Origin: a virus
Virus record (IMG/VR): IMGVR_UViG_3300032242_001702
Coordinates: 1 to 47,237 of that record
DNA: 47,237 nt
Strand: one strand, 5' to 3'
A program made the translations under genes and the position numbers. Shown piece after piece: positions 1 to 46,965 of the stretch. Under the pieces are notes generated by a model. It was not told the DNA's origin. It did no database searches and saw only the letters and a list, made by a program, of their open reading frames with translations. How positions within the stretch are numbered: the stretch's first letter is position 1; each line of letters begins with the position of its first letter.

Positions 1-2700
1 GCCGTCAAGACGATTGCGTGGGCGCTCAAGGGCGATCCCAAGGATCTCTATGTCTGCATGAGCGCACAAGCTCGAGCAGAAGCAAAGACCTCGAAGCGTG
101 GCTACCAGTATCTCAAGGCCATGCGTTCGCAGCAGGACGTTGTGGCATTGCGTTCACTCTTCATCGACATCGACGTGAAGGACGGCGCGTATGCCTCAAC
201 GAAGGAAGCGGGCGTTGCACTGAAGGATTTCATCACCGCATCAGGGCTACCTCAGCCTTCTGCGATGGTGGGTTCTGGTTCGGGTGGGTTCCACGTCCAC
301 TGGGCTCTCGACAAGGATCTCAGCAAGGACGAGTGGCAAATTCTCGCGAACGCGCTCGCCAAGGCGACGCAGGCTCACGGGCTCATGTGCGATACGCAAT
401 GCACCGTCGACTCGGCTCGCATCCTGCGTATCCCTGGAACCTTCAACCATAAGAGCGAACAACCTAAAGAGGTAAAGCTCTTGTGGTCTGGCAAGCGTGC
501 CAGCCTCGACCAGGTGCGTGCGTCACTCGGCAAATACATCGAAGCATCGAAGCCTGCCTTGGCGAAGGCAGTGGTCAGTGAATTCTCTGCTGGCCTCGAA
601 GCGAAAGCCAAGCCCGTGAAGATCGCGGACGTGGCCCGCTCGTGCAACTTCGTCAAGCGGACACTTGAGACGGGTGGGGCAGGGAACAGCAACCCTCTCT
701 GGCTCATGACGTCGGTCATCGCAAACTTCACCGAGGAAGGCGCAGAAGCCCTTCACCGGATGAGTGAGCAGCATCCGACATATAACCCTGTCGAGACCGA
801 TGCGCTGTTCCTACGTGTCAGAGACACACAGCAAAGGAAGAACTCCGGCTGGCCGCAATGCGAGAAGATCGCAGCTTTTGGTTGTGCGGAGTGTAAGACC
901 TGCCCGCTCCTCGCGCAGAAGAAGAGCCCGCTCAACTTCGCACTGCCGGCCGCGAACGACGACCCCAAGTCGCCGCTACCGGATAACTATCATCGTGATC
1001 CAGACGGCATCATCTACCGCCGCGTCGTCGATGACATGGGTGCAGTCCAGACCATCAAGCTGTGCTCGTATCCATTCTGGAATGCGTGGATGTCCAATAA
1101 TCCCTGGACGCTGCACGTCATCACAAAAACCGAGCGCGGCAACGAGACCAAGCTCGACATACCTACTGAGGTAATCACGGCCAAAGACGCACTGCCCAAA
1201 TACCTGGGTGCCCGCGGCATTTTCGTCAGCGAAAAAGTTTCAAAAATTCTCAAGGAGTTTCTCTTGTCCTGGATACAAAAATTACAAATCACAAAGGATG
1301 CAGTGATCTCATCCTCGCCATTCGGTTGGTCCGTCATCGACGGCAAGATCGAAGGCTTCTCGTATGGCGGCCGCTTGTGGATGCCTGAGGGCGATCGTCC
1401 TGCCGTCAACGCTGATCCCTATCTGGCGGCGCAATACACGCCGAAGGGCAGCATCGCACCGTGGAAGCAGATGGCCAAGATTGTTACAGATCAACGCCGT
1501 CCATCTCTCGATGCGATCATCGCAGCAGCCTTCGCTGCACCACTGGTGCGGTTCACCGGTCAGACGGGTGTGATGGTCAATGCGTACTCGAGCGAGTCCG
1601 GTATCGGTAAGACAACAGCGATGAAGATCGCTCAGTCCGTGTGGGGCGATCCGGTTCGCGCCATGCAGGGTCTCGACGATACGACCAACTCAGTCCTGAA
1701 GAAGATCGGCGACATCCGCCACCTGCCGCTCTTCTGGGATGAGCTCAAGACTGATCAGCAGACATCGAAGTTTGTGAACATGGCCTTTACCCTCACAGGT
1801 GGCCGTGAAAAGTCGCGCCTCACATCCGAGTCGCAGCTTCGTTCCGCCGGCACATGGCAGACCATGCTCGTGTCAGCATCGAACGACTCGATCATCGACG
1901 CGATGATCCGCGTGAACAAGTCAACCACTGCAGGTATCTACCGCACGTTCGAATACACGGTGCTCCCAGGTATCCAGAACGGCGACCACGTGCAGGTCAA
2001 TACCTTGTTAGGTAAGCTCAATGACCACCATGGCGAAGTGGGTCTCGAATACGCAAAGTTCCTCGGCAAGAATTGGAAGCGCATCGAGAGTGACATGGTT
2101 CACTTCTCGAAGGAAATTTACGCTAATCACGCTTTCACGAACGAAGAACGCTTCTGGCTCGCCTGCATCGTGTCGATCGTCATTGGTGCGCGCTACTCCA
2201 ACGAGCTCGGCTTCACAGACATCGACGCCGACGGCCTGTTCAAGTTCCTGATGGACGTGCGCAACAACATGCGTGGCGAGATCCAGAACAGCCCTGCAGA
2301 CCAGTCCAAGACGATCGCGGTGTCGACGATCCTCACGCAGTTCCTCGGGGCCATGCGCTCGCGTAACACGCTCGTGACGAACCGCATTTGGGTCAGCCCC
2401 GGCAAGCCTGCCAAGGACGCGATCAAGGTTCTCACAGATGCCAGCAAGCTCGACCATCTCAAGGTGCAAGTCGGCCGTGAGGACCACATGGTGCGCATCT
2501 CATCCACGGCATTCTCGGAGTGGATGGAGCAGCGTCAGTATTCGCGTCACGCCTTCACGAAGAAGATGGAGAGCGAGTTCGGAATGAAGAAGCCGTTCCC
2601 CGGTATCCTGGGCAGCGGGACAGCATTCTCGACGGGCACGAAGGAATATCTGATCGAGCTCAACCTTGCCGATCTGAGGTTGAAGGACATCGTGGAATGA
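1..2700 (+). CDS. Primase-polymerase / DUF927-type helicase fusion (5' partial)
   Basis: The frame is open from the first base, so the true start lies outside the window; the first internal ATG is at 58. Numbering from that Met: an archaeo-eukaryotic primase (PrimPol) domain carries the metal-binding pair in FIDID (D37, D39), the SGGFHVH motif (H79, H81) and a DSARILR motif (D118). A cysteine cluster of the form CxxxxxxxCxxCxxC follows before residue 300. The C-terminal half is a DUF927-type superfamily 3-like helicase with Walker A SGIGKTT near residue 513. The protein would synthesise primers and unwind DNA at the phage origin. Three copies of the dispersed inverted repeat lie inside the gene (460, 1159, 2000). 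Assignment of both domains is by recognised motifs. Confidence 0.9.
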   Translation, partial: AVKTIAWALKGDPKDLYVCMSAQARAEAKTSKRGYQYLKAMRSQQDVVALRSLFIDIDVKDGAYASTKEAGVALKDFITASGLPQPSAMVGSGSGGFHVHWALDKDLSKDEWQILANALAKATQAHGLMCDTQCTVDSARILRIPGTFNHKSEQPKEVKLLWSGKRASLDQVRASLGKYIEASKPALAKAVVSEFSAGLEAKAKPVKIADVARSCNFVKRTLETGGAGNSNPLWLMTSVIANFTEEGAEALHRMSEQHPTYNPVETDALFLRVRDTQQRKNSGWPQCEKIAAFGCAECKTCPLLAQKKSPLNFALPAANDDPKSPLPDNYHRDPDGIIYRRVVDDMGAVQTIKLCSYPFWNAWMSNNPWTLHVITKTERGNETKLDIPTEVITAKDALPKYLGARGIFVSEKVSKILKEFLLSWIQKLQITKDAVISSSPFGWSVIDGKIEGFSYGGRLWMPEGDRPAVNADPYLAAQYTPKGSIAPWKQMAKIVTDQRRPSLDAIIAAAFAAPLVRFTGQTGVMVNAYSSESGIGKTTAMKIAQSVWGDPVRAMQGLDDTTNSVLKKIGDIRHLPLFWDELKTDQQTSKFVNMAFTLTGGREKSRLTSESQLRSAGTWQTMLVSASNDSIIDAMIRVNKSTTAGIYRTFEYTVLPGIQNGDHVQVNTLLGKLNDHHGEVGLEYAKFLGKNWKRIESDMVHFSKEIYANHAFTNEERFWLACIVSIVIGARYSNELGFTDIDADGLFKFLMDVRNNMRGEIQNSPADQSKTIAVSTILTQFLGAMRSRNTLVTNRIWVSPGKPAKDAIKVLTDASKLDHLKVQVGREDHMVRISSTAFSEWMEQRQYSRHAFTKKMESEFGMKKPFPGILGSGTAFSTGTKEYLIELNLADLRLKDIVE

Positions 2701-2939
2701 ACCTTCAACGTGTGAAGCCATACACGGAGCTCATCAGTGAGCTCGGGTGTGAAGTCACGGACATCTCGGTAACCGGGTCTTGTCATTATAAGATCGCGGT
2801 TACCTCTCAGGGTAAGTCAAGGTTCTTTATAGCCCCGTTCTCGGGGTCTGACCGCCGTGGGTTGAAGAACTTCCGCGCCGACGTTAAGAGATGGATGAAG
2901 TCTATCTCTTACGTTGGTGGGGCCAATGACATTATCTGA
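2697..2939 (+). CDS. Small basic protein translationally coupled to the primase-helicase
   Basis: An 80-residue product whose ATG overlaps the primase-helicase stop (ATGA), so translation is probably coupled. The sequence has a GSCHYKI segment, a FIAPFSGSDRRG turn and a basic C-terminal helix. This is loosely reminiscent of HicA-like or other small double-stranded-RNA-binding folds, but I would not assign a function. A perfect copy of the dispersed inverted repeat (2800-2815) lies in the middle and encodes TSQGK. The 3' end overlaps the DUF1003 gene by 14 bases. Confidence 0.7.
   Translation: MNLQRVKPYTELISELGCEVTDISVTGSCHYKIAVTSQGKSRFFIAPFSGSDRRGLKNFRADVKRWMKSISYVGGANDII
2800..2815. repeat. 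Dispersed inverted repeat (perfect)
   Basis: TTACCT-CTCA-GGGTAA inside the small gene after the primase-helicase. One of the few copies with T at position 6 and G at position 11. Confidence 0.85.
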
Positions 2940-3438
2940 ACGTATTGCCGATCGAACCGCCGCAATCATTGGATCGTGGCGGTTCATTATTACCCAGTCA
3001 GGTATCCTGGTTATTTGGGTAATCTATAATTCAGTCGCCGCGGATCGCTTCGACGAATATCCCTACATTCTGCTGAACTTGTTTCTGTCGGTTCAGGCGG
3101 CCTTCTGTGGCCCGATCCTGTTGCTCGCGTCAAACCGTCAGTCGGAGATCGACCGCAAGCGAGCCATCAAAAATCTCATGATCGACCAAGAGGACCACGA
3201 GGTGATTATCCGTTTAGAACATCACCTCGACCGCCATTTTCATCGCTTGGCCGCAGAACTTAACGCCGACCGGACAGCCGCTTTTTACGCTTCCAAGTCA
3301 GATACTCTGCCGCCTCCTCGCAGTCCGAAAAGCACTTCAAAAAAGCCGGACCTTCAGCCTCAGGATCAAAAATCGCCGTTATCGAAGCCCCGTGCTGCTG
3401 CGCCCCGTAGCCAAGGTTCGAAGCGTAAGAGTCAATGA
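2926..3438 (+). CDS. DUF1003 family membrane protein
   Basis: A 170-residue protein with two membrane segments, at about residues 18-37 (ITQSGILVIWVIYN) and 45-67 (YILLNLFLSVQAAFCGPILL), followed by the family signature ASNRQSEIDRKRA. This pattern is typical of DUF1003, a cytoplasmic membrane protein family of unknown role. I chose the ATG at 2926 over a TTG at 2914. The C-terminal tail after about residue 110 is Pro/Ser/Lys rich and lies entirely opposite the 3' end of the convergent phosphoesterase gene (179-base overlap). It may be an unselected read-through of the antisense strand. A copy of the inverted repeat is at 2990-3005. Confidence 0.8.
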   Translation: MTLSERIADRTAAIIGSWRFIITQSGILVIWVIYNSVAADRFDEYPYILLNLFLSVQAAFCGPILLLASNRQSEIDRKRAIKNLMIDQEDHEVIIRLEHHLDRHFHRLAAELNADRTAAFYASKSDTLPPPRSPKSTSKKPDLQPQDQKSPLSKPRAAAPRSQGSKRKSQ

Positions 3439-4321: not shown

Positions 4322-4558
4322 TCACTGGCCTTTTCGCCAGCCCCTATTCTTACTCTGTGAGGTAACACGGAGGTTACTCTTTGAGTTGCCACCACCCGAA
4401 CGCAATGGCTTCTTGTGGTCGACGTCTTTCCCGTCGCCCTTTTGGACGCGACCTTCACGTGCCAGTTCACGCCGAGCGGCATTACGCTTGGCACGATTTT
4501 TCTTCTGCTCAGGTGTGCCCTGATATGTATCGTATTCGTGACGATAATCCCTGGTCAT
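4322..4558 (-). CDS. Small HNH-like protein
   Basis: A 78-residue, very basic protein. A run of Arg/Ala/Lys is followed by KGDGKDVDHKKPLRSGGGNS and KSNLRV, the layout of small phage HNH nucleases (DH, then a GG-N-SNL segment). The first HNH histidine is D-V-D-H; the protein is short for the family and could be a minimal nuclease or a degenerate derivative. Start ATG overlaps the stop of the upstream gene by four bases (ATGA). A near-perfect inverted repeat (4350-4365) lies in the 3' part. Confidence 0.7.
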   Translation of the reverse strand: MTRDYRHEYDTYQGTPEQKKNRAKRNAARRELAREGRVQKGDGKDVDHKKPLRSGGGNSKSNLRVTSQSKNRGWRKGQ

Positions 4559-4818
4559 GCTTTCCGAGCCCGATTGGTAAGTTGGTTATATTTATAGTCC
4601 GATGCCTTACCGCCATTCGCTTTGGCGGCACGGTCCTTTGCACGACCGGCTGCACCCATGTCCTCACGCTTTTTACCTTTCGGGGTAAGCTGCTGAGTTC
4701 CTGGTTTCAGATTGCCGCTTTTCTGGAGTGTCGAAGTCGCAACAGCAAATGCTTTGCTCTTCGGCATTCCCTTCGCTTCGAGCTGTGAGACAAGACGTTC
4801 AAGAAGTTTTGGCATCAA
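4555..4818 (-). CDS. Conserved phage protein, Lys-rich, unknown function
   Basis: An 87-residue protein starting MMPKLLERLVSQLEAKGMP, with an N-terminal amphipathic helix and a basic, Ala/Gly-rich C-terminus. Short proteins of this type sit beside internal virion genes in many podophages, and some are packaged, but nothing in the sequence gives an activity. Directly downstream of the 2299-residue gene with no gap. A perfect inverted repeat (4673-4688) encodes TPKGK in its middle. Confidence 0.7.
   Translation of the reverse strand: MMPKLLERLVSQLEAKGMPKSKAFAVATSTLQKSGNLKPGTQQLTPKGKKREDMGAAGRAKDRAAKANGGKASDYKYNQLTNRARKA
4673..4688. repeat. Dispersed inverted repeat (perfect)
   Basis: TTACCT-TTCG-GGGTAA, in coding sense TTACCC-CGAA-AGGTAA, encoding TPKGK. 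Confidence 0.85.
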
Positions 4819-7800
4819 TCAGCTCAGATTTTGTGCGCTCTCGAGTAAATAACGATTGCGCTTGTTAACAGGAATTCCGTTGACACGTTCTTGCTTACTA
4901 CGACGGCCCAAGGATTTGATCAACTCACCTTTGGTGATCTGAGCTTCTTTAGGCTTGTCAGCATTCCATTGCTGAATATGCGCCCACATATCATCGCGGT
5001 GTTCAGGCTTTGCCTTCTCCCACGACTGCATGAGCTCAGTGCGCTTCTGGTTGTAGCCCTGCGTCAGGTGATATGTTTCGTTCTTCTTCTCGTAATACTC
5101 AGCTTCACCTGCAGGGGTAAAGCCAAGCAGACGAGCAGCCTTGTCGCCGACACCATAAGCATAGCTGTCTGCTTGCTGCGAACCACCTGACCATGCACGC
5201 TCAACGTCGCGGAGGATCTGGAGAGGGAACGCCTTCTCCATGCCGCCCACGATGTCGCCGTTCGCCATCTGGTTCACACCCTTCAGTGTGTCCTCGACGA
5301 GACCAGCCGGCGCACCCAGTGCCGCCTTCGCGATGAACGCGTAGACGCTCTGGCTATCGAGCTTGTCGGGCATACCGAACGTGAAGAACGAGTTCAGACC
5401 GAGGCGGTGATGAACATCGACGCCCGCCTGACGGCCGAGCCCGTGCAGGATAAGTTCTGCGGCGTCCTTGCCCATCGACTTGTACAGATACTCAGACAGA
5501 CCCTGTTCAACATCGGACCAGTCACCGTCTGTAAGGCCGAGACCCTTCGACACCGTGCCTGCGATTTTGAATGCTTCGAGCGGGAGACCGCCAAGAACAC
5601 CAGTCATCATCGTGTGCATACCAAGGACTGCTGCGAGCGATGCGACGGCCTGAACCTTCGCTTCACGCGTCTCACCCTTGAATGCCTGCACCATTGTCTT
5701 GCCGAGCAGGTTGTAGATCATCTGCGGGAACTGGCGGAACTGCATGAACGGCTTCAAGAACTTGTTCTTGAAGAGCGGTGCAGCGTTCGTCGCGCTGTAG
5801 ACACCCTGCGTGTTGGCGATCACATTGCGCGCATATTCCATCGCGCCTGCGTGTGCTTCAGCCTGGCCTTTACCTGCACGGGTAAGTTTCTCGAACTCGA
5901 GGCGATACGCAGCCGTCGCGCCGACATAGCGGTTGATCGCTTCGGTCGCGTTCGTCAGGTGACGGAACACCGTGTCGAACTTGCCAAGGCCCGCATCGAG
6001 CGCACCAACCAGGCCACCCTTCTGAGTGGACGGCATATATTTCTGCAGCTCGATACCCGACTCCGGATGCAGAAGACCGATTTCCGAGAACGCGTCGAAC
6101 ATCTGCCCGAGGCGCTTGGCGTCCGGAGCATCCTTGAAGCTCTCTTTGAACAGGTCGTTGTAGTTGGTGCCCTTGTGCAACGAGTCGGAGATCGACTTTA
6201 CAAAGTCTTCACCGCCAGCACGATAAGCGCCAGTTGCCTCTTTCCAGGCTTTCAACATCGTACCGAACGCGCCGAAACCATGACGCCCCACCATGTAGGG
6301 AACCGTGATCATCGGAAGATGCGTTTGATGCAGGATCAAGTGCGATGGACGCATCATGCGGTCGATGTACGAGTACATCATCAGACGGCGTGACCAGTCT
6401 GTGTACTTACCTGTGTAGGTATTCGGATCTTGCGAGCGAGCACGGCGTTCGGTTTCGTTCGCCGCAGCCGACATGTCCGCATAGTCTGCAGAATGCCGAC
6501 GCCCCTCGACATGCTTCCACATGTCTTCGAGGTTGGAATTGATCACATCATCATATGCAAGCTTCGCCCGATAATTCGATGCTGAATTGTTGTAATCGTA
6601 GAGGTTACGCAACAGATCCTTGGACGCACCCTCGACGCGACGACGAGGAAGACGGCGCGACTGGACACGGTTGCCGGACATCGCACGGATGCCGGCTTCC
6701 TTGATCGCATTGCGGAACACTTCACGGTCCGACTCGCTGGACTTCTTGTAGGCGTCCTGCTGCTGGATCGAGTTGATCAGGCGCGCGACACCGCGACCCG
6801 TGAACTCTTCTTCCTGGTCTGCATACTGACGACGCTCGCCATGATTGAGCGTGTCGAACTGGTTCGTACCCTTGAGCTCCTCATACGAACGACGCGCGTC
6901 TGCGGCTGTCTCATGGAACTCGAGGTGCTTTTCCTGCAGCGTCACAAGGATGCGCTTCTCCGGACCGCCTGCGGTCGAGATCGCACCTTCCTTCGTCGAG
7001 CGCTTGCCGGTGAGCGGATCATAATAGACCGTCTCAGCCTTGAACTTCAGAGGCTGGCTTGTGGCGAACTTCTCAGCCTCGGCACGTGTCCGGAACTCGT
7101 ACTGGTTCTTCTCAGGACGCGCGAGTGCGCCCTTGCCTTCAGGCAATTTGTATTCGCCGATCACAACATGATCGCCGCGGCGCATCAGCGGAGCGTAGGG
7201 ACCATCCACCTTGCGGAAGTTATCCACTGCTTCGATCTGTGCGACGGCGTTGGAGCCCAACTCAGTGTTGAGGTGCTCACGAAGTTTGTCCGTGAGGCCA
7301 TTCTTGAACAAATCTTTCGCAACCGCCTTGCGGTCACCGGCATAGCCATAGGTGCGCAGGATGCTGTCGAGGATGCCCTTCGACATCTCGGAGTGGCTCT
7401 TGTCGTAGAACTTGAACAGAGACTTCTGGAGCTTCGCGTAATCAGGGTTGCGCGCTACCAGCTCAGCATACTTCGCCTTCAGGCCAGGGTACGCTGCACG
7501 CGCTTCCCATGTGTTGATGGCGTGCTCGCTGGCGAGATCTTCCTTCGAGCGACCATTGCGTTCGCGCGCACGGATATAGGCGTTGGTATCGAGGTGCTCG
7601 TTGAACCCCTTGCCAAGCTCTTCCGACGCATCGACGCCATACATGGTCTGATCATGGATAAAGTCTGAGAACGCTTCGAAGCCCTTCGGGTCCATTTTCT
7701 GGGCACGCCACAGCGCAGCCTCGATGTCGGAGCCTTCCTGCTTCAGCTTCTGAGCATGAACGCCCATGCGCTCCACGTTATCGAAGATGCTGCGGATCTG

Positions 7801-30414: not shown

Positions 30415-30430
30415 TTACCTCACAAGGTAA
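30415..30430. repeat. Dispersed inverted repeat (perfect, at a ribosome site)
   Basis: TTACCT-CACA-AGGTAA; on the minus strand GAGGTAAAGCA then ATG of the adaptor gene, so the hairpin would hide the ribosome site. Confidence 0.85.
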
Positions 30431-37215: not shown

Positions 37216-37463
37216 CTGAGATCATCGACTTCAAAAGTCGCACCAAACATCTTGCCGAACCAGACCAGACCGTAGTCGAGTTTTTGAAAGATATTATTGA
37301 AAAGAAATGGCTCGATGGAGCCGTCTCAGTTCTTGTAGTGACGATGGATGAAGCCGGTGTTGTCGAACTCTATGCCACCCAAAACCTTGCACCCATGGAA
37401 CAGCTCTGGATGGCGGAAATCGCCAAGCAGGATGCTGTCGCCCCCGAGGAAGAAGACGAATAA
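37212..37463 (+). CDS. Small acidic protein between terminase subunits
   Basis: 83 residues, starting MTEIIDFKSRTKHLAE; alternating helices and strands (VSVLVVTMDEAGVVELYA) with an acidic tail (VAPEEEDE). Overlaps both neighbours by one to four bases. Function unknown; probably expressed with terminase. Confidence 0.65.
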   Translation: MTEIIDFKSRTKHLAEPDQTVVEFLKDIIEKKWLDGAVSVLVVTMDEAGVVELYATQNLAPMEQLWMAEIAKQDAVAPEEEDE

Positions 37464-38902
37464 TGGCCTCTATCGTTTATACCGCGCCCCCAACATGTGC
37501 GCGCTTCATGAAATCGGACGCGTTCGGCCGGATGATTGCCGGTCCTGTGGGCTCCGGCAAAACGACTGCGTGTCTGTTTGAACTGTTTCGCCGCGCTCTC
37601 GAGCAGGAACCCGCCCCTGATGGGCTGCGCTATACCCGCTTTGCCATCGTGCGACAGACCTTGAAGCAGCTCCGCGACACGGTGCTCAAGGACATCGTGT
37701 CATGGCTCGACGGTGTGGCGACCTATAAGGTCTCCGAGAACACAATCTTCATCAATTTTGGTGACGTGCGGTCCGAGTGGCTGCTCATCCCGCTCGAGGA
37801 TCAAGAGGACCAGAGGCGTCTCTTGTCCATGCAGCTCACGGGCGCATGGATGTCGGAGTGCATCGAGATGGATGTGGGGATCATCTCCCCACTCGCCGGC
37901 CGTGTCGGCCGTTACCCGAAGTCGGGTGCCACCTGGATGGGCATCATCGCCGATACCAACATGCCTTCGATCGGTTCGCCCTGGCATGATTTTATGGAGC
38001 TCACCACGCCACCGGACTGGCAGGTGTTCATTCAGCCGTCGGGCATGAGCTCAGATGCTGAGAACCTGCAGTGGCTGACTCAGACCCCTGAGACGCTCAA
38101 GCTGCCGGAGACCCACGAGGAACGCATCGCGCAGGGGCGCAAATACTACGAGCGCTTCGTACGCTCGAACTCGCCGGAATGGTGCAAGAGGTATGTCTAC
38201 GCAGAATATGGCGACGACCCGTCGGGCACCGCCGTGTTCGGCAAGAGCTTCAAGATCACCTACCACGTCGCAGACGACGTACAGCCCATCTCAGGGTACC
38301 CGCTGCTGGTCGGCCTCGACTTCGGTCGCGACCCATGCGCCATCATCTGCCAGCCCGACCACAAGGGGCGCCTGCTCGTCCTCGAGGAGATCATCGCCGA
38401 GGACATCGGCCTCGAGCTCCAGATGCAGCGCGCGATCAAACCAGCACTGTTGCAAGAACGCTACATGGGTAGGGGCATCGTGATCGTCGGTGACCCTGCC
38501 GGCAAGCAGCGCTCGACCCTCTATGAGGAGACCTCCTTCGACCTGGTGAAGCGCGCAGGCTTCAACGCCTACCCGGCTCCGACCAACGATATCGACAAGC
38601 GGCTCGCCGCGGTCGAGGCGTGGCTCCTGGGACAGCGGGACGGCGGGCCTGCTGTCCTCATCGACGGGAAGCGCTGCCCCAAGCTGGTGCGTGGTCTCTC
38701 GGGCGGCTATCGCTATGGGAAGACGCGTGGGGGTATCAGGAGGGTTACACCCGACAAGAACGAGTACAGCCACGTCCTGGACGCCTTCCAGTACGCTTGT
38801 GTCGCTGCGCACGGCGGAATGGTGGACATGATCGCCAGCCGGCTCAAGACCCGCCGGGCACCACGTCAGGGCTCTCGGGTGTCGTCCTCCGCCTGGACCT
38901 AG
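37463..38902 (+). CDS. Large terminase subunit (packaging ATPase/nuclease)
   Basis: 479 residues. Walker A is GPVGSGKTT at 27-35; WMSECIE in the ATPase half is a Walker B-like segment. The nuclease domain starts with LVGLDFGRDP (D286), then VIVGDP and HVLDAFQYA with further acidic residues. The length and order fit terminase large subunits of podophages. It provides packaging power and cuts concatemers. Convergent with the short gene at 38899. Confidence 0.88.
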   Translation: MASIVYTAPPTCARFMKSDAFGRMIAGPVGSGKTTACLFELFRRALEQEPAPDGLRYTRFAIVRQTLKQLRDTVLKDIVSWLDGVATYKVSENTIFINFGDVRSEWLLIPLEDQEDQRRLLSMQLTGAWMSECIEMDVGIISPLAGRVGRYPKSGATWMGIIADTNMPSIGSPWHDFMELTTPPDWQVFIQPSGMSSDAENLQWLTQTPETLKLPETHEERIAQGRKYYERFVRSNSPEWCKRYVYAEYGDDPSGTAVFGKSFKITYHVADDVQPISGYPLLVGLDFGRDPCAIICQPDHKGRLLVLEEIIAEDIGLELQMQRAIKPALLQERYMGRGIVIVGDPAGKQRSTLYEETSFDLVKRAGFNAYPAPTNDIDKRLAAVEAWLLGQRDGGPAVLIDGKRCPKLVRGLSGGYRYGKTRGGIRRVTPDKNEYSHVLDAFQYACVAAHGGMVDMIASRLKTRRAPRQGSRVSSSAWT

Positions 38903-39094: not shown

Positions 39095-39391
39095 TTACAC
39101 GCGCGTGACCGGGACTGTGTTGCGACGCATCCAGTCCTGCACGTCCTCGATGCGGTACATCACGCCCTTGCCCGTCTTCACATAGTCCGGACCCTGCTTA
39201 AGGCGACGCCACTCGCGCAGCGTATCCGGCGTAACATCGAGGACCAAAGCGAGCTGATCAATGGTCATGACACCGATTAATACGCGAAGTTTACCGGCAT
39301 CTTCCCCTTCCAATAGTGTCATATTCCAAGTGCCCCGATGATTATTTTCACAGACCGGAGCGGTTATAGGTCGCTTTGGTACATGTTTCAA
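39095..39391 (-). CDS. HTH excisionase-like DNA-binding protein
   Basis: 98 residues. Residues about 41-60 form a MerR/excisionase-like winged helix (MTIDQLALVLDVTPDTLREW) followed by a basic wing and MYRIEDVQDWM. Such small proteins next to an integrase act as excisionases or local regulators. SD-like AAGG is nine bases before the ATG. It follows the integrase gene in the same direction. Confidence 0.7.
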   Translation of the reverse strand: MKHVPKRPITAPVCENNHRGTWNMTLLEGEDAGKLRVLIGVMTIDQLALVLDVTPDTLREWRRLKQGPDYVKTGKGVMYRIEDVQDWMRRNTVPVTRV

Positions 39392-39415: not shown

Positions 39416-40462
39416 TTATTTCTGAATAATAGTAGGTCTCAAGTGGGTATAACGGGCGAGATGCTTCCATGTTTTGTGTCCTGAGATGGCCGCGACCTTA
39501 GGTATATCATACCCGGCCTCGAATAACCTTGATATCCCGTCATGTCGTAGGTCGTGAAAATGCAGATTTGTAATTGCACAATTAGTAGTCGCCCTCATGA
39601 AGCTATGGGTGACGGCGATTTCCCGTGGCTCAAAGACGTAATCCTTACCTGACGAGGTAAGCGCCCTCCGCTTGATGATTTCCACGGGGTCGATGACGCT
39701 TCCATGAAAACTGAAATGCCCTGTGACGAGAGGCACCACCTCGTCGCGACCGCCCGGCCGTCTCGGGTCTTTGCGTCCGCGAAGGAGCGCAGTTCGGTCT
39801 TGCAAATCGACGTCGCTAAACCGTAGCCCGCCCGGACCCGTGATCTCGCCGAGTCGCATACAGGTGGCTATCGCAAATAACACCATATCAGCCATCGGAA
39901 TGTCGGACCGCACCTGACCAAACCACGTCATGAGTTTGTGCAGCTCCTCCTCAGTGGGGCGACGATCGCGCTCCTCGGAACTCGCCACGACGCCAGCATG
40001 GCGCAGGCTCTTGACCGCAGCCGTCAGCTCGAGGCGCGCGAACTGTGCTTCCCGGTTCCCGGCCAGCACACCACCGTGCCCAAGTGTGACCCCGAGATAT
40101 GTGAGCTCCTGGAGAATGGTCGCTGGCTTCTTGCCGGCACGCGCCCGCTTCGCGGCGTAGGTGGAGATTGTGCCCGTGGTGATCTCGGTCATCCGGTATG
40201 TCCCCCAATATGGGAGTAGCACCCGCTCGATGGTCCGATGCTTGGTAGGGCTCACACGCATCAGGCGCTCGAAATAGTCCCCCACAAGTTCTGCAAATGT
40301 AAGGTTCGGGTTGTCTGACCGTGAGGTGGTCAGACGGTGTTCCTCGTCACGAGCCCAACGGACGGCATCGTTCTTGGTGGGGAAGATTTTGGAGACGGTG
40401 GGTTTTCCAGTGAGACGAACCTGAGCACGCCAACCTGACTGGATCTTATAGATGGAGGCCAT
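39416..40462 (-). CDS. Tyrosine recombinase (phage integrase)
   Basis: 348 residues from the ATG at 40462, with AGGG just before it. Catalytic residues are R203 (CMRLGEI), H303 and R306 (HDLRHDG), H329 (SGHKTW) and the nucleophile Y338 (ARYTHLRP). N-terminal part fits the arm-binding and core-binding domains. It would carry out integration and excision. The gene marks the phage as temperate or recently so. A perfect inverted repeat (39645-39660) encodes TSSGK. Confidence 0.9.
   Translation of the reverse strand: MASIYKIQSGWRAQVRLTGKPTVSKIFPTKNDAVRWARDEEHRLTTSRSDNPNLTFAELVGDYFERLMRVSPTKHRTIERVLLPYWGTYRMTEITTGTISTYAAKRARAGKKPATILQELTYLGVTLGHGGVLAGNREAQFARLELTAAVKSLRHAGVVASSEERDRRPTEEELHKLMTWFGQVRSDIPMADMVLFAIATCMRLGEITGPGGLRFSDVDLQDRTALLRGRKDPRRPGGRDEVVPLVTGHFSFHGSVIDPVEIIKRRALTSSGKDYVFEPREIAVTHSFMRATTNCAITNLHFHDLRHDGISRLFEAGYDIPKVAAISGHKTWKHLARYTHLRPTIIQK
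39645..39660. repeat. Dispersed inverted repeat (perfect)
   Basis: TTACCT-GACG-AGGTAA in the integrase gene, encoding TSSGK. Full 6-bp stem. Confidence 0.85.
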
Positions 40463-40470
40463 GGCTACCC

Positions 40471-40488
40471 TGTGCAATCCATGTGCAG
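40471..40488. repeat. TGTGCA direct-repeat unit 1
   Basis: TGTGCAA-TCCA-TGTGCAG. It lies directly before the integrase ATG, so a protein bound here could control integrase expression. The matching unit is 209 bases away. Confidence 0.6.
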
Positions 40489-40697: not shown

Positions 40698-41004
40698 GGG
40701 CAGAAAATGCACCAAGGTGTCACCTAGGTAAAAATGCCAATTTTTTGGCCTAGGTATTTCTAAGGTACCTAAAAAGAAGGGGTGGGGGTGGCCCTGGCTG
40801 GTCCAGATGGGGGTGGGGGTAGGGGCCACCCTCGATGGCGCAGAACGGTGGCCGGTCCAACCGTCGCAACATCGAAAAATAGAATACTGCGATGATGACG
40901 CATTCGCGATCTTACGGATTAGCCTCGACGAGATTTTTTACCTGAACAGGTCATGTCCATTCCTTAATGCTTATATGTAAGGGGTTCAACAATAGGACAT
41001 GACC

Positions 41005-41208: not shown

Positions 41209-41425
41209 TTTATTTAACGGTCAATTACCTGATCAGGTCAAGCCGTTTGCTCGGCGCGATCTTCTAGCAATGCCGCGCGCGAATGATTGCGCGGCGCGGC
41301 TCCATCGGATGCCTGAGCCGAAACATGATCTCGGCGATTATCGTGAAGGCATGACGCGCTTCGAAGCGGCAAAGGCTGGTGTCTTGTTTGTAACATGCAA
41401 GCCGTCGAAGCGTTCGACGGTCTGA
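41201..41425 (+). CDS. Small early protein, unknown function
   Basis: 74 residues, overlapping the previous stop by eight bases. MVDLFNGQLPDQVKPFARRDLL and a C-terminal GMTRFEAAKAGVLFVTC segment. An inverted-repeat copy with a GATC spacer (41225-41240) begins 24 bases after the ATG and encodes LPDQV. Family not recognised. Confidence 0.5.
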   Translation: MVDLFNGQLPDQVKPFARRDLLAMPRANDCAARLHRMPEPKHDLGDYREGMTRFEAAKAGVLFVTCKPSKRSTV

Positions 41426-41758
41426 CGGCAAGGCGAGGGGGGCGGCAACGCTCTCCTCTCTCTCTCTTATTCTTTATTCTTTATTCTTTATTTTATACAT
41501 TTCAACTAACGGGCCACGGGCGGGACGGTGAGACGGTCGCGGCATAACATCATTTCTCTTTTTCACTGAAAAACAAAACAAAGAATAAAGAATAAGCGTC
41601 GACATGAATGGGATCAAAGGGTTACGGGTTTTATATTCTTTATTGCGCCTCGGCGCGTTAGTCCATTTCCGGACGATCTTGATCGGATGACCTGATCAGG
41701 TAACATAAACAAGGCGCGCCACCTATCACACCGCGCCGCATTTACAGGGGTTTAGACC
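41426..41758. other. AT-rich non-coding region with repeats
   Basis: 333 bases without a gene. Holds tandem TTATTCT/TTCTTTA runs (41467-41492), an exact 17-bp inverted copy (CTTATTCTTTATTCTTT at 41466 and its complement at 41580), the second copy of TGGGATCAAAGGGTTA (41609) and an inverted-repeat copy with GATC spacer (41688-41703). The AT-rich iterated repeats would suit a replication origin, but nothing proves it. Confidence 0.5.
41609..41624. repeat. 16-bp direct repeat, copy 2
   Basis: Identical to 40654-40669. Next to AT-rich repeats. Confidence 0.5.
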
Positions 41759-42466
41759 ATGACTGCACTTTCCAATAGCACAGCGCTTCTCGCACAGCGT
41801 GACGAATATTTTGCATCGGTCGACAAGTTCGCGGCGCAAGAGGCGCTCGGCGTCGACAGCCGTCCCAACTGGCTCAAGGCTACGGTCCGCGCGGCGCACA
41901 ACGGCGTGATCGCGGCTGACGAAAGCAAAGCGATCTATGAGCGTTACATTGAGCGCGTCTCAAAGAAGGCGGCGCATCTGCACAAGTCGCTGTCGGTCCG
42001 CGCAAGCGAATTGAAAGAGATCATTACCTATGCAGGTTTGAACACGGTCGACGCCGTCGCGGTGATCGACGGGGTGCAGGACATTATCCGTGACCGTCGG
42101 GACGCGAAGCTAGCTAGCAAAACATTTTGGCAATCAACTCTCGCGATCTCGAAGAAGCAAAACGCGAACGCAAAAATCGCGCTGACGGCGGATGAGATTG
42201 AGGCGTGCATTGCCACGGACGAAAAAGAAAAGACGCTCCTCACTGATCTGGAGGCTGATTACAAGCGCCTATTCAAGCGGGTTGCTGAGGCTGAGAAAGC
42301 TGACGGCGGCGCGGCTGATTATGTGAAGGACGCGCTCGCATCTGTCGGCAACGCTATCGTGGAAGCGGGCGGCGAATTGCCTGCAATGTCGAAAGACGAA
42401 AAGAAACTCCGCGCGGCTATGATCCTCGTCGCGCAAGCGCAGTCGCAAGGCTCGCTTCAAATCTGA
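41759..42466 (+). CDS. 235-residue helical early protein, unknown function
   Basis: Begins MTALSNSTALLAQRDEYF; long charged helices follow (YERYIERVSKKAAHLHKSLSVRASELKEII, LLTDLEADYKRLFKRVAEAEKADG), so a coiled-coil or helical bundle. Largest protein of the early region before the ATPase. AGGGG lies before the ATG. Possible roles are DNA-bound structural or host-interfering protein; no motif supports a choice. Two hairpins follow the stop. Confidence 0.6.
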   Translation: MTALSNSTALLAQRDEYFASVDKFAAQEALGVDSRPNWLKATVRAAHNGVIAADESKAIYERYIERVSKKAAHLHKSLSVRASELKEIITYAGLNTVDAVAVIDGVQDIIRDRRDAKLASKTFWQSTLAISKKQNANAKIALTADEIEACIATDEKEKTLLTDLEADYKRLFKRVAEAEKADGGAADYVKDALASVGNAIVEAGGELPAMSKDEKKLRAAMILVAQAQSQGSLQI

Positions 42467-42722: not shown

Positions 42723-42738
42723 TTACCCCGAAAGGTAA
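42723..42738. repeat. Dispersed inverted repeat (perfect, at a ribosome site)
   Basis: TTACCC-CGAA-AGGTAA; the right arm is the ribosome site of the 35-residue membrane peptide, ATG five bases after. Confidence 0.85.
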
Positions 42739-42742: not shown

Positions 42743-42850
42743 ATGTCATCAACTACATTCATTCGATACATCACGGCCATATTCATTCTCATGGTGATCT
42801 ATGAGATCGCCATAACTGTGACGCTGCTGATCAACGCGGCCATTCGATAA
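42743..42850 (+). CDS. 35-residue membrane microprotein
   Basis: A very short frame: MSSTTFIRYITAIFILMVIYEIAITVTLLINAAIR. Almost all of it is one hydrophobic helix, so it is a single-span membrane peptide. Its ribosome site (AAAGGTAAC) is the right arm of a perfect inverted repeat (42723-42738). The stop lies at the start of the next inverted-repeat copy, so expression of the run of small genes is linked to the repeat. Role unknown. Confidence 0.55.
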   Translation: MSSTTFIRYITAIFILMVIYEIAITVTLLINAAIR

Positions 42851-42864
42851 CCTTTGGAGGTAAC

Positions 42865-43029
42865 ATGGAACTCGAAGCCACACATCTTCGCGACGACAAG
42901 TATTGCGTCCGTCCCAAAGGCCAGCTCGGCACAATGGGCTGGCATCCACGCCCGTGGACTGCCGTGTTCATTCGCGCCCGCAATCCGCAACATGCCGTGC
43001 TCAAAGCAAGCATTTACTTCCAAAGGTAA
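42865..43029 (+). CDS. 54-residue early protein
   Basis: MELEATHLRDDKYCVRPKGQ, then GWHPRPWTAVFIRARNPQHAVLKASIYF. Its ribosome site GGAGGTAAC is the right arm of the inverted repeat at 42848-42863, and its stop codon TAA is the end of the next copy (43014-43029). Short Trp/Arg-rich product of unknown function. Confidence 0.55.
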   Translation: MELEATHLRDDKYCVRPKGQLGTMGWHPRPWTAVFIRARNPQHAVLKASIYFQR

Positions 43030-43031: not shown

Positions 43032-43199
43032 ATGGATTTTGAATATTTCTCTTATGGCGCACTCATTACCCTCATGGGTATTGTCTGCCTCACATTGCTC
43101 TGGGCGGCATGGGAAGAAGGCGTGCTTCCCTATTTGATCGGGTTCGTTGTCATTAGCTATGTCGTCGGCCGGATCGCCAAGAATTACTTTGAGGGGTAA
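43032..43199 (+). CDS. 55-residue membrane protein
   Basis: Two hydrophobic segments: FSYGALITLMGIVCLTLLWAA and GVLPYLIGFVVISYVVG. AAAGGTAAC upstream is a repeat arm; the stop TAA is the end of the next repeat copy (43184-43199). An internal copy (43066) encodes ITLMG. Likely a small inner-membrane protein; early phage membrane peptides often interfere with host or superinfecting phages, but this is inference. Confidence 0.6.
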   Translation: MDFEYFSYGALITLMGIVCLTLLWAAWEEGVLPYLIGFVVISYVVGRIAKNYFEG

Positions 43200-43201: not shown

Positions 43202-43465
43202 ATGATGACTTTACCTGAAGAGGAAATTGCACAGCACGAGCTGCGTGCCGCTCTGATGCTGCTTCTAACGTCGACAACCCAAAACATGTTTATCGAGGCA
43301 TGTGCTGCTGTGCTTGACCAGATCTCTGCTCGGCAGATCGTCACGCAATACGACGTGACGCTGGCAAACGACATGTATCAGGGCTTGGCACGGCTCGCCA
43401 ATGCCAAACCTCGCGCCTTGCACACATACCAATTTCGATACTTACCCCACGAGGTAAAACCATGA
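43202..43465 (+). CDS. 87-residue early protein, unknown function
   Basis: MMTLPEEEIAQHELRAALMLLLTSTTQ, helical, ending RYLPHEVKP. GGGGTAACA before the ATG is a repeat arm. An imperfect repeat (43211) is within the gene and a perfect one (43442-43457) encodes LPHEV at the C-terminus and contains the next ribosome site. Stop overlaps the next ATG (ATGA). Confidence 0.55.
   Translation: MMTLPEEEIAQHELRAALMLLLTSTTQNMFIEACAAVLDQISARQIVTQYDVTLANDMYQGLARLANAKPRALHTYQFRYLPHEVKP
43442..43457. repeat. Dispersed inverted repeat (perfect, at a ribosome site)
   Basis: TTACCC-CACG-AGGTAA; the next ATG starts five bases later. The related copy at 43700 has the same spacer. Confidence 0.85.
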
Positions 43466-43617: not shown

Positions 43618-43746
43618 ATGCACAAGCGCGAACCCAAGTATGACGTCAAGTCTGTAGCTGATCGCTACTTCAAAGAACAATGCAAACGTCTGGGATCAAT
43701 TACCCCACGAGGTAGACCATGCAAGACAAAACCCAAAAGCGTATAA
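43618..43746 (+). CDS. 42-residue basic early protein
   Basis: MHKREPKYDVKSVADRYFKEQCKRLG. A GTG codon just upstream (43615) could be the start. It overlaps the following gene by 28 bases; the inverted repeat at 43700 encodes TPRG near the C-terminus. Real gene status uncertain. Confidence 0.4.
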   Translation: MHKREPKYDVKSVADRYFKEQCKRLGSITPRGRPCKTKPKSV

Positions 43747-43943
43747 CAATCAGATGCGAACAATGTAATGGCGACAGTATCTATGGCACAGCACAATGCA
43801 CATGGAGTGACGCCAACCAAAATTGGGAAATCCAAGATTGGGAACCAGAGAATATGTGCAACAAATGCGGCGAGACTACATTCAAAGAAGTCGAGTTGGT
43901 CTGGTCGAGCGAAATACCTCAGGAGGTAATGGATGGAGGATGA
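43719..43943 (+). CDS. 74-residue zinc-ribbon-like protein
   Basis: Two CxxC pairs, CEQC and CNKC, about 35 residues apart with Trp/Asp-rich strands between, are consistent with a small zinc ribbon. GAGGTAGACC before the ATG is a repeat arm. A copy of the repeat near the end (43914) provides the ribosome site for the next gene. May bind nucleic acid or a partner protein. Confidence 0.6.
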   Translation: MQDKTQKRITIRCEQCNGDSIYGTAQCTWSDANQNWEIQDWEPENMCNKCGETTFKEVELVWSSEIPQEVMDGG

Positions 43944-44235
43944 GTTAGCTCTCTATTACATCTGCCTTGATGAGGGGCATACAGGTGACGAACTAATCGT
44001 GTGGGCATCGAGTGCAAGCGAGGCTGTCTATCTGTTTGTCAAATACCGTATCACAGATAACGGCATCGAAAGTGACGAGTCTCGCACACCCAATTTTTGG
44101 CTCGGCCAGATCGCTATCGTATACCGATTACCTAAACAAGTAACAGGTATGTCGCGCGTGCTGCATTGGCACAACGACATCCAAAGAAAAGATTATCGCA
44201 AACCTAAATTTCTGGAGGTGCAAGAGGAGGAATAA
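43933..44235 (+). CDS. 100-residue early protein, unknown function
   Basis: MEDELALYYICLDEGHTGDELIVWASSASEAVYLFV, then WLGQIAIVYRLPKQVTG. Strand-helix mix. GGAGGTAATGG before the ATG is a repeat arm; an imperfect copy (44128) encodes LPKQV. Ends with AGGAGG, which serves the next gene. Confidence 0.55.
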   Translation: MEDELALYYICLDEGHTGDELIVWASSASEAVYLFVKYRITDNGIESDESRTPNFWLGQIAIVYRLPKQVTGMSRVLHWHNDIQRKDYRKPKFLEVQEEE

Positions 44236-44427
44236 TTGATCGCAGAGTTATTGGGTTTCTCTATCTACGCATTGCTCGTTTGGTTTTTGAGCGAGTCCCT
44301 TATCAAAGTTGTTCTTACCCAAGGAGGTAATTATGAAGGTCAAGATCTACCGGACTATTTCCGACATGTTCTACGCGATCGCGCGCACCGCGTTTCACTA
44401 CGCAATGCGGATGGCGGACAAGGCTGA
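44236..44427 (+). CDS. Small membrane protein with TTG start
   Basis: Starts at TTG immediately after AGGAGGAATAA. The first 30 residues (LLGFSIYALLVWFLSESLIKVVL) form a membrane segment; the rest overlaps the next gene in another frame by 95 bases and has unusual composition. The N-terminal part is credible; the tail is less so. Confidence 0.4.
   Translation: MIAELLGFSIYALLVWFLSESLIKVVLTQGGNYEGQDLPDYFRHVLRDRAHRVSLRNADGGQG
44315..44330. repeat. Dispersed inverted repeat (perfect, at a ribosome site)
   Basis: TTACCC-AAGG-AGGTAA, directly before the ATG at 44333; GGAGGT is a strong Shine-Dalgarno. Confidence 0.85.
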
Positions 44428-44551
44428 CGACGCAGCATGGAACAATATGTCACCTGAAGAACAGGAATGTATCGAAGCACTTACTGATGAAGCATATGCA
44501 AACATCATGGCTGCGGTCGAATACCCCACAGCACCACATCTTCCCTCGTGA
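44333..44551 (+). CDS. 72-residue helical early protein
   Basis: MKVKIYRTISDMFYAIARTAFHYAMRMADKADDAAW and MSPEEQECIEALTDEAYANIMAAVEY. GGAGGTAATT before the ATG is the right arm of a perfect inverted repeat (44315-44330). The next inverted repeat (44541) overlaps its stop. Function unknown. Confidence 0.55.
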   Translation: MKVKIYRTISDMFYAIARTAFHYAMRMADKADDAAWNNMSPEEQECIEALTDEAYANIMAAVEYPTAPHLPS

Positions 44552-44558
44552 GGTAATC

Positions 44559-44726
44559 ATGACCCCCGATCTTATCCCTATTCGTTTTTTGATTATGCAA
44601 CTGCGTAAACAGATCGAGGAGTTGGAGTGGCAGGGCGATCATCCTTCGCTGCCCGTGCTTCGCTCGCAACTCGCGGACTGCCTGCGTGAACAGGCTGAGG
44701 GTAAGACCTACATGCCTACCTTTTGA
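44559..44726 (+). CDS. 55-residue early protein
   Basis: MTPDLIPIRFLIMQLRKQIEELEW, then SLPVLRSQLADCLREQAEG. GAGGTAATC upstream is a repeat arm (44541-44556), and the stop lies within the following copy (44716-44731). Helical, no domain. Confidence 0.55.
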   Translation: MTPDLIPIRFLIMQLRKQIEELEWQGDHPSLPVLRSQLADCLREQAEGKTYMPTF

Positions 44727-44736
44727 GGTAATGCGG

Positions 44737-44835: not shown

Positions 44836-44836
44836 A

Positions 44837-45253
44837 GTGAATATCGCTGAGACGATGATCCATAAAATACAAACCATGAACGACCAGTTTCTACTCAAGG
44901 GATACTTTGAAATGCCAGGCTGGGAGAGTGGCTATGAGATCCCGCACCAGTCCCTGCGCGCACTCATGCGTGTCGTGGCCAGACAAGAGGCGCGTCCGTT
45001 TATTTTCACTGCAGGGAACTGGTTGCATGTGCCGCGCACCAAAACCTGCTCGTTCATCTGGGCGCCACTTACCTTGGCAGGTAACGAGGTCAGTTATCGC
45101 TACGCCGCTACATCAAACCATCAAGACATCTCATATCGGGCTTACACCAAACACTTCGATTTCTATTTCAAGAGCAAGGAACTTCTCTATGATTACATGC
45201 GTCAGGTCATGTCTGACCCTGACGATCGCAAGAAACTCAAGTTACCTTGGTAG
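44837..45253 (+). CDS. 138-residue early protein, unknown function
   Basis: GTG start with AGGAG nine bases before. MNIAETMIHKIQTMNDQFLLKGYFEMPGWESG, then VARQEARPFIFTAGNWLHVPRTKTCSFIWAPL and a KHFDFYFKSKELLYDYM segment. Mixed alpha/beta fold; not recognised. A perfect inverted repeat (45069-45084) encodes TLAGN and another (45242) lies at the stop. Confidence 0.6.
   Translation: MNIAETMIHKIQTMNDQFLLKGYFEMPGWESGYEIPHQSLRALMRVVARQEARPFIFTAGNWLHVPRTKTCSFIWAPLTLAGNEVSYRYAATSNHQDISYRAYTKHFDFYFKSKELLYDYMRQVMSDPDDRKKLKLPW
45069..45084. repeat. Dispersed inverted repeat (perfect)
   Basis: TTACCT-TGGC-AGGTAA inside the 138-residue early gene, encoding TLAGN. Confidence 0.85.
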
Positions 45254-45258
45254 GTATT

Positions 45259-45566: not shown

Positions 45567-45836
45567 ATGACAACTTCTATTGACGATATCCTTACCCAAC
45601 GGGGTAAGACGCATGGCGATTATAAAGACCATGCCAGCATTACACAGATGCTCAAGCAGATGATGCGTCGGGGTAAGAACTGGCCGACGCTTTACATGAC
45701 CGAGCAAGAGACGCTCGACATGATCGCACACAAGATCGGACGTATTCTCGCAGGTGATCCACACTTCCAGGATCACTGGGATGACATCGCAGGCTACGCC
45801 AAACTTGTAGCCAATGAACACCAAGGCAAGAACTAA
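45567..45836 (+). CDS. DUF6378-like early phage protein
   Basis: 89 residues: SIDDILTQRGKTHGDYKDHASITQMLKQMM, NWPTLYMTEQETLDMIAHKIGRILAGDPHFQDHWDDIAGYAKLV. The R-G-x-THGD...HW-DI-GYA pattern is a conserved small phage family (DUF6378 as I recall), with a fold similar to MazG-type nucleotide pyrophosphohydrolases. The gene stands before the AAA+ ATPase. A perfect inverted repeat (45592-45607) encodes TQRGK. Confidence 0.7.
   Translation: MTTSIDDILTQRGKTHGDYKDHASITQMLKQMMRRGKNWPTLYMTEQETLDMIAHKIGRILAGDPHFQDHWDDIAGYAKLVANEHQGKN
45592..45607. repeat. Dispersed inverted repeat (perfect)
   Basis: TTACCC-AACG-GGGTAA inside the DUF6378-like gene, encoding TQRGK. Confidence 0.85.
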
Positions 45837-45888
45837 TTACCTTTCCAAGTAACGCCCCCACCACGGGCTACACCCACAGGAGTCTACC

Positions 45889-46965
45889 ATGTATCTTTCT
45901 ACAGTGTCTAAGCGCGCCACCGCTATGTATCAGTCCGGCAAGTGCTTCTACTTCAAGTCCGGTCCTGGCATCGGCAAGACATCTACCGTCACTGCTGTTG
46001 TGCCAGAGATCGCTACCTCGCTAGGTAAATCTCTCGGCTTCGTTCTCATCAATGGTCCGCTGCTCACGCCTGCTGATGCTGTCGGGTATCTCGTGCCCAA
46101 GCACACTGACACTGGTCGTGTCGAGTCGGTCTACACCGATCCGTTCTGGTGGCGCACCTCGGAAGGTAAGCGTCTCGAGGAATACGACGGCGGCATCATC
46201 TTCGTCGACGAGGCTGACAAGATGGATACCGACGTCAAGAAGATCATCGGTGAGATGGCTCTGTCCGGTCGCTGCGGTCCGCATCAGGTTCCTGATGGCT
46301 GGGTCGTATGGATGGCGGGCAATCGTTCGCAGGATCGTTCGGGTTCAACCAAAGAACTCGATCACTTGATCAATCGTCGTTGCGAGATCGACGTGACCCC
46401 CGACCTTCCAGGCTGGGAGACATGGGCGCACAAGCACGGTGTGCATCCTGCTATCATCACGTTCGCGGCGCAGAACCCCAACGTCGTGTTCCCTGAAGGC
46501 GTGCCAGAAAAGCAAGGTCCGTTCTGCACGCCTCGTGCGCTCGTTGCGTGCGGCGAGATGCTGTCGCTCATGGCTGACGACGACGACAATCTGCCAACCG
46601 ACTCCGACGCTATCGAGCTTGCGTCTGGTTTCATCGGTGGTCCTGCGTCTGCTCAGTTGTTCGCGACCCTGCGCCTCGCTGCCGAGCTGCCGCCGTTCGA
46701 TCAGATCCTTACCTCTCCAGGTACGGTCAAGGTTCCGACCAAGCCGGATGCGCAGATGCTCGTTGCTTACAATCTTGCAGCGCGCACCGACGCTTCCACC
46801 CTCGGTCCGATCATCACCTATGTCGAGCGCCTGCCCGCTGACTTCGCAGTCACGTTCGCCAAGGCTGTCGTCACGCGCAACACAGCACTCGTTGCTCGTC
46901 CCGAGATGCTCGCGTGGGCCAAGCGTAACAACTCTCTGATGACGACGCTCGCGTTGCTCAAGTGA
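45889..46965 (+). CDS. AAA+ ATPase, MoxR/CobS-like
   Basis: 358 residues with AGGAG before the ATG. Walker A GPGIGKTS at 25-32; Walker B IIFVDEAD with D107/E108; ELDHLINRRCEI as sensor 2-like segment. The closest architecture is that of phage MoxR-like AAA+ proteins, which remodel partner proteins. A VWA-type partner often follows; none is visible before the window ends. Repeat copies lie at 46013 and 46709. Confidence 0.85.
   Translation: MYLSTVSKRATAMYQSGKCFYFKSGPGIGKTSTVTAVVPEIATSLGKSLGFVLINGPLLTPADAVGYLVPKHTDTGRVESVYTDPFWWRTSEGKRLEEYDGGIIFVDEADKMDTDVKKIIGEMALSGRCGPHQVPDGWVVWMAGNRSQDRSGSTKELDHLINRRCEIDVTPDLPGWETWAHKHGVHPAIITFAAQNPNVVFPEGVPEKQGPFCTPRALVACGEMLSLMADDDDNLPTDSDAIELASGFIGGPASAQLFATLRLAAELPPFDQILTSPGTVKVPTKPDAQMLVAYNLAARTDASTLGPIITYVERLPADFAVTFAKAVVTRNTALVARPEMLAWAKRNNSLMTTLALLK

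Follow-up and report, generated by a model that had tools for sequence, protein, structure and literature searches.

Temperate phage phiC31 carries conserved inverted repeats (CIRs), a repressor-bound palindromic operator repeated through the phage genome. The C repressor of the rhizobial phage 16-3 accepts palindromic sites of different spacer lengths; its operators are few, lie in one region and have ACAA half-sites. ParB dimers bind parS, a 16-bp palindromic site. The stoperators of cluster A mycobacteriophages, bound by the L5 repressor, are short sites dispersed in more than 20 copies at promoters and short intergenic positions, and among related phages their motifs vary along with immunity (PMC9283540, PMC6550527). 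Each is an asymmetric 13-mer that a monomer binds, and its orientation follows transcription (PMC9283540). Here we analyze a 47,237-base virus record (IMG/VR IMGVR_UViG_3300032242_001702; "the window" denotes this whole stretch of DNA), throughout which a short inverted repeat, TTACCY-N4-RGGTAA, recurs. With 51 copies in the window and 58 in the related Rhizobium phage RHph_TM3_14A, the repeat resembles the stoperators in being dispersed in more than 20 copies. We found no published description of this motif, or of a dispersed palindromic system of this kind, in the limited collection of literature searched, and know of none ourselves.

A palindromic DNA site repeated throughout the window

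The pattern TTACCYN4RGGTAA occurs in the window 16 times without mismatch, 32 times with one mismatch and 7 times with two. Dinucleotide-preserving shuffles (n = 50) gave means of 0, 0.14 and 1.78 (maxima 0, 1 and 4), and synonymous-codon shuffles of the 37 kb of coding sequence gave 0.44 perfect and 2.5 single-mismatch copies, where 10 and 17 are observed. Near-perfect sites are enriched at spacers of 4 and 3 only, spacers of 0–2 and 5–12 being at background. The perfect and single-mismatch sites, together with three sites that have a 3-nt spacer (two perfect, one with a single mismatch), make up the 51 sites of Table 1. A sequence-only reading of the window had reported about 50 copies and proposed shuffled controls as a check. 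Its count was confirmed and is reached by neither kind of shuffle, and every coordinate that it gave carries the sequence ascribed to it, although three single-mismatch sites (15926, 16587 and 26677) had been overlooked. All three forms that it wrote as TTACC-N5-GGTAA have a 3-nt spacer; those at 18847 and 37181 match perfectly, and that at 21380 carries one mismatch.

The same reading had allowed for either a dimer-bound DNA site or an RNA stem, and our results favor the former. Among 80 sites pooled from the window and G001, a close relative, the arms are symmetric and the ACC core hardly varies. Translational control by RNA hairpins, with the ribosome-binding site masked within the right arm, would explain why this arm is Shine-Dalgarno-like directly ahead of many early ATGs: twelve early-region sites in the window end 1–5 nt ahead of an ATG, with the right arm (GAGGTAA in several) occupying the Shine-Dalgarno position. 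However, in the pooled sites, arm mismatches that yield a G-U pair number 13 on the sense strand and 15 on the antisense strand, a balance that disfavors an RNA stem. In addition, the sixth pair on the sense strand favors C-A (16 times) over T-G (9 times), and many sites lie within genes. We conclude that the repeat is a DNA site and regard RNA hairpins as very improbable.

In Bradyrhizobium, the site is not a host signal. Every perfect copy in two phage-bearing genomes (8.7 and 7.9 Mb) lies within phage sequence, and 60 further genomes hold approximately 13 perfect copies, compared with approximately 20 for a reversed-pattern control. Host chromosomes thus lack the phage-like density that the sequence-only reading had named as the mark of a host signal. 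A site for a host transcription factor or nucleoid protein is refuted for this genus; we found no support for it, and it is the least probable of the explanations considered here.

Recurrence, re-coding and placement of the sites in related phages

A search of related phages revealed the site, identical or re-coded, in about 28 near-complete relatives, most of which hold 8–68 exact-pattern copies per genome. Phages whose TerL is approximately 57–80% identical to that of the window are mostly site-bearing, and many near 56% lack the site. The IMG/VR relatives are partly incomplete contigs, in which genes are our own open reading frame calls, and some panel phages are closely related and hence not independent of each other. 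The phage in Bradyrhizobium sp. 139 is divided between two contigs and has host genes on its flanks (glyS and PPDK; ETF-QO and phosphoketolase), and it is therefore a prophage. Four near-identical isolated Rhizobium phages, RHph_TM3_14A, TM27A, TM27B and TM29, have the early module in common; of these, the genome of RHph_TM3_14A was the one read.

When relatives of the early module (helicase identity 48–81%) were searched de novo for dispersed palindromes, these phages proved to keep the geometry of the site but to swap its inner bases and spacer. Many phages carry TTACCY-N4. The other classes are TTACCG-N3 (G015, G034, G035 and G041), TTACCG-N4 (G030), GTTACTT-N4 (G026 and G028), GTTACTC-N4 (G008), TTACT of 15 or 16 bp (G043), TTACTG-N3 (G038), TTACAG-N3 (G039) and TAACTAT-N2 (G029). 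G107, which encodes the early gene A discussed below and shows no motif by 5-mers, does contain spacer-3 sites, 2 of them perfect and 17 with a single mismatch, compared with 0 and 1 in the control.

Other dispersed signals were also observed. (A)CCGG-N5-CCGG(T) is present in 18–66 copies per genome, with a spacer of exactly 5 and nearly always far fewer copies at other spacers, in G018, G020, G034, G035, G038, G039, G041, G042, G106 and G108 (for example, L333–L336). It is absent from the window, RHph_TM3_14A and G032, and it is found both with and without a TTAC-type site; it may be a further multi-site system or may reflect a coding effect. On a Candidatus Magnetomicrobium contig (L092), 20.9 kb around a related capsid gene hold 18 copies of GTGCG-N4-CGCAC and 9 of GTGTG-N4-CACAC, which may represent one more dispersed palindrome, here in an unrelated host.

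The sites are spread evenly in several genomes. In RHph_TM3_14A, 58 sites in 61 kb have a gap coefficient of variation of 0.60, versus 0.97 for random placement, and spacing is more even than random in four of nine genomes tested (RHph_TM3_14A, G003, G002 and G013); the gap test detected no under-dispersion in the window, G001 or G007. Many of the eight early genes compared among different TTACCY phages hold one or two sites each, and 38 of 542 directed pairs are co-located (2.3 expected). Density thus seems to persist, at about one site per gene, as the positions turn over. Such whole-genome coverage, with approximately one site per conserved gene at mostly differing positions, is what a genome-organizing role would produce, in which a nucleoid-like or partition-like phage protein bound about once per kilobase folds, marks, protects or segregates the DNA and has no direct part in transcription. 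We consider this main rival explanation unlikely, although it deserves serious attention. The early operon is denser in sites than the rest of the genome, and sites are enriched at gene starts and in gaps: by the deposited annotation of RHph_TM3_14A, 38 of the 58 sites lie inside genes and 20 are not wholly within a coding sequence (6.7 at random), and 11 precede a start codon by at most 12 nt (1.4 at random; maximum 7 in 2000 trials). In many phages, gene A also has a site at its own promoter or start, and lineage-specific re-coding is typical of immunity operators.

The density of sites directly ahead of early genes, together with their linkage to the early module, could instead point to an activator or antiterminator-type factor that lytic early expression requires. 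This seems improbable to us, as sites also lie deep within late genes on the opposite strand and, being palindromic, carry no direction.

A candidate binding protein and a proposed mechanism

The sites show linkage to the left-hand part of the early module. Although G018 and G020 have the major capsid protein and portal in common with the window, they lack both the early module and the site, which indicates that the site tracks the early module and not the capsid module. Gene A, the first gene of the rightward early operon (EVB41_028 in RHph_TM3_14A), is present in 28 of 28 readable site-bearing early modules, including those of G107 and G040, and is absent from all four helicase-bearing phages that have no site clearly above background (G042, G106, G108 and G109). 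The ATPase and VWA genes accompany gene A nearly always; in G040 (a 45-kb contig) the site occurs with a 150-amino-acid form of gene A, itself detected by profile only (E 5e-5), and neither the ATPase nor the VWA gene was detected. Eight of 27 phages have an exact site at most 60 bp upstream of gene A, where we estimate about 0.7 by chance. Beyond helicase divergence, the divergence of gene A, the ATPase and the VWA gene tracks the site with partial correlations (r) of 0.44, 0.54 and 0.55; primase divergence again tracks it, and that of the right-hand genes EXO, VRR and E is untied to it. The better of two structure models of the gene A product (predicted local distance difference test score 88) is all-helical, and the protein has no known relative. 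Searches of viral models with gene A matched only two phage proteins without a name; a gene A profile gave marginal helical or coiled-coil-type matches to PDB sequences (E 0.0015 or higher). Gene A is the leading candidate for the site-binding protein, a tentative assignment in which our doubts slightly outweigh our confidence.

Three other candidates were set aside. Many site-bearing relatives lack the HTH_17/excisionase-like gene, and gene B is missing from site-bearing G028, G029 and G030. The PhoB-like winged-helix protein C, found in most early modules, is unlinked to the site: it is missing from site-bearing G012, G013, G036 and G045 and present in site-free G042, G106 and G108. Its representatives in RHph_TM3_14A (L184, 34654–34968) and G001 (L165, 5290–5661) match a PhoB-family DNA-binding-domain profile (PDB 5dcm, E 0.009). 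A nearest-neighbor test compared twelve gene families with site class, and no family agreed with it completely.

Our results suggest a model in which the repeats are, rather probably, operators through which a dimeric DNA-binding protein encoded by the phage silences initiation and elongation at many points. Each (G)TTACCY half-site would be read by one subunit, and a flexible dimer would accept a 3- or 4-bp spacer. The protein would occupy approximately 50 sites, in the divergent early-promoter region, at the starts of many early genes and about once per gene elsewhere. Bound there, it would block transcription initiation and elongation and so silence a whole prophage or incoming phage; that binding represses is, in our judgment, somewhat better than an even proposition. 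Each lineage has re-coded the inner half-site bases and the spacer, as expected if phages escape one another's immunity. More speculatively, these phages of Rhizobiales may possess an undescribed genome-wide silencing system, in which the all-helical gene A protein acts on about 50 palindromes and lineage re-coding creates many mutually blind immunity groups; we offer this as a possibility that we lean against.

Several observations weigh against the operator model. Site divergence follows that of gene A, the ATPase and the VWA gene to a similar degree, which does not single out gene A, and the three genes adjoin and co-occur almost always. The gene A models have no fold match in the PDB, and no recognizable DNA-binding domain was found in the protein. 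Sites lie clearly close to start codons in the window, RHph_TM3_14A and G026, but this tendency is weak or absent in TTACCG-N3 phages, and even spacing is also compatible with a structural role. Finally, some site-bearing phages (G001 and RHph_TM3_14A) show no standard integrase close to the early promoter, and lysogeny therefore cannot be assumed for all carriers.

The window is a fragment of a phage whose relatives infect Rhizobium or are Bradyrhizobium prophages; judging from these, its own host probably belongs to the Rhizobiales. Near-complete relatives measure 57–69 kb, so probably at least 10 kb are absent between the two window ends; the 5' end falls inside a DUF927 primase gene. The capsid and tail module lies on the minus strand, and the early module runs rightward from gene A through small genes to an AAA+ ATPase. 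In relatives, this MoxR-like ATPase is followed by a DUF2201 metallopeptidase/VWA protein, the two forming a conserved pair in early operons. We read the integrase gene as a marker of a temperate lifestyle; a search for relatives of this integrase in bacterial genomes returned none. In the divergent regulatory region, the sites at 40938, 41225 and 41688 have a common extended core, ACCTGA(T/A)CAGGT, and are more alike than sites elsewhere; they are possibly the primary operators. Upstream of gene A, at approximately 41550–41650, lie the repeats AAAGAATAAAGAATAAG and ATTCTTTATT. G001 and G017 carry their own, different A+T-rich repeats at the matching place, and together these may form a second, fast-changing operator set.

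Table 1. Sites and genes of the window, in order of position.
Feature	Position	Strand	Context
Site, 1 mismatch	1159..1174	.	position kept in two relatives
Site, 1 mismatch	2000..2015	.	
Perfect site	2800..2815	.	intergenic
Site, 1 mismatch	2990..3005	.	
Site, 1 mismatch	4350..4365	.	
Perfect site	4673..4688	.	intergenic
Site, 1 mismatch	5105..5120	.	
Perfect site	5870..5885	.	inside 2299-aa gene 4819-11718
Site, 1 mismatch	6407..6422	.	
Perfect site	8051..8066	.	inside 2299-aa gene 4819-11718
Perfect site	10196..10211	.	inside 2299-aa gene 4819-11718
Site, 1 mismatch	10746..10761	.	
Site, 1 mismatch	12122..12137	.	
Site, 1 mismatch	12749..12764	.	
Site, 1 mismatch	13547..13562	.	
Site, 1 mismatch	14732..14747	.	
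Site, 1 mismatch	15926..15941	.	newly listed
Site, 1 mismatch	16587..16602	.	newly listed
Perfect site, 3-nt spacer	18847..18861	.	
Perfect site	19691..19706	.	inside gene
Site, 1 mismatch	20128..20143	.	
Site, 3-nt spacer, 1 mismatch	21380..21394	.	
Site, 1 mismatch	26677..26692	.	newly listed
Perfect site	29400..29415	.	18 nt upstream of start, gene 28968-29381
Perfect site	30415..30430	.	overlaps ribosome-binding region, gene 30054-30410
Major head protein gene	30957..31958	-	capsid module
Perfect site	32862..32877	.	inside gene
Portal-like gene	34563..36650	-	capsid module
Perfect site	35932..35947	.	inside portal-like gene
Perfect site, 3-nt spacer	37181..37195	.	16 nt upstream of gene 37212-37463
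TerL gene	37463..38902		
HTH_17/excisionase-like gene	39095..39391	-	considered as cognate regulator, then set aside
Tyrosine integrase gene	39416..40477	-	Pfam Phage_integrase E=2e-18; PHROG 1 E=8e-43
Perfect site	39645..39660	.	inside integrase gene
Site, 1 mismatch	40938..40953	.	divergent regulatory region
Site, 1 mismatch	41225..41240	.	divergent regulatory region, core ACCTGATCAGGT
Site, 1 mismatch	41688..41703	.	55 nt upstream of gene A, core ACCTGATCAGGT
Gene A	41759..42466	+	first gene of rightward early operon; 235 aa, predicted all-helical
Perfect site	42723..42738	.	ATG 4 nt downstream
Site, 1 mismatch	42848..42863	.	ATG 1 nt downstream
Site, 1 mismatch	43014..43029	.	ATG 2 nt downstream
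Site, 1 mismatch	43066..43081	.	
Site, 1 mismatch	43184..43199	.	overlaps ribosome-binding region, gene 43202-43465
Site, 1 mismatch	43211..43226	.	
Perfect site	43442..43457	.	ATG 4 nt downstream
Site, 1 mismatch	43700..43715	.	3 nt before start, gene 43719-43943
Site, 1 mismatch	43914..43929	.	3 nt before start, gene 43933-44235
Site, 1 mismatch	44128..44143	.	ATG 5 nt downstream
Perfect site	44315..44330	.	right arm at expected ribosome-binding site, gene 44333-44551
Site, 1 mismatch	44541..44556	.	2 nt before start, gene 44559-44726
Site, 1 mismatch	44716..44731	.	
Perfect site	45069..45084	.	inside gene
Site, 1 mismatch	45242..45257	.	1 nt before ATG at 45259
Perfect site	45592..45607	.	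ATG 5 nt downstream
Site, 1 mismatch	45837..45852	.	36 nt before gene 45889-46965
AAA+ ATPase gene (MoxR-like)	45889..46965	+	early module tracked by sites; PHROG 1297 ATPase E=1e-66
Site, 1 mismatch	46013..46028	.	
Site, 1 mismatch	46709..46724	.	

Comparison with known multi-site systems

If the proposed model is true, these phages, whose Gram-negative soil hosts are relevant to nitrogen fixation, provide a second major and independent example of a phage genome under many-site control; the sites in this example are palindromic and come in at least seven related codes. How a phage shifts the specificity of a regulator with about 50 targets would become a testable question, and one open to work at the bench because isolated Rhizobium phages (RHph_TM3_14A and the near-identical TM27A/B and TM29) are available.

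Among the systems introduced at the outset, ParB/parS shares a 16-bp palindromic site, but the sites described here have another sequence and are dispersed genome-wide rather than clustered; no ParA or ParB was found among the early-region proteins, the part of the gene set that was scanned. The operators of the 16-3 C repressor also belong to a rhizobial phage and are also palindromes of varying spacer, although they differ in being few and confined to one region, against approximately 50 sites genome-wide here, and in their half-sites. The phiC31 CIRs are likewise a palindromic, repeated operator, but the present site has another sequence and more copies, occurs in an unrelated phage group and has half-sites re-coded lineage by lineage.

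The sequence-only reading had likened the repeat to stoperators and to the phiC31 operators. The multi-site logic fits, whereas stoperators are asymmetric and strand-oriented (PMC9283540) and the sites here are 15- or 16-bp palindromes of Rhizobiales phages, unoriented in that sense and antisense departures are balanced. Stoperators also concentrate in short intergenic gaps and at gene starts; the corresponding excess in RHph_TM3_14A coexists with a majority of sites inside genes and is weak in several relatives. An L5-type repressor, which has an N-terminal helix-turn-helix and a stoperator domain and terminates transcription where it binds, was not recognized by Pfam and PHROGs among the early and regulatory-region proteins, a scan that left out some small open reading frames and included no direct comparison with the L5 repressor. 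Because the site is an unoriented palindrome and no such repressor was recognized, we do not file it with the stoperators; by analogy, the system appears to be stoperator-like in its logic while standing outside the stoperator family.

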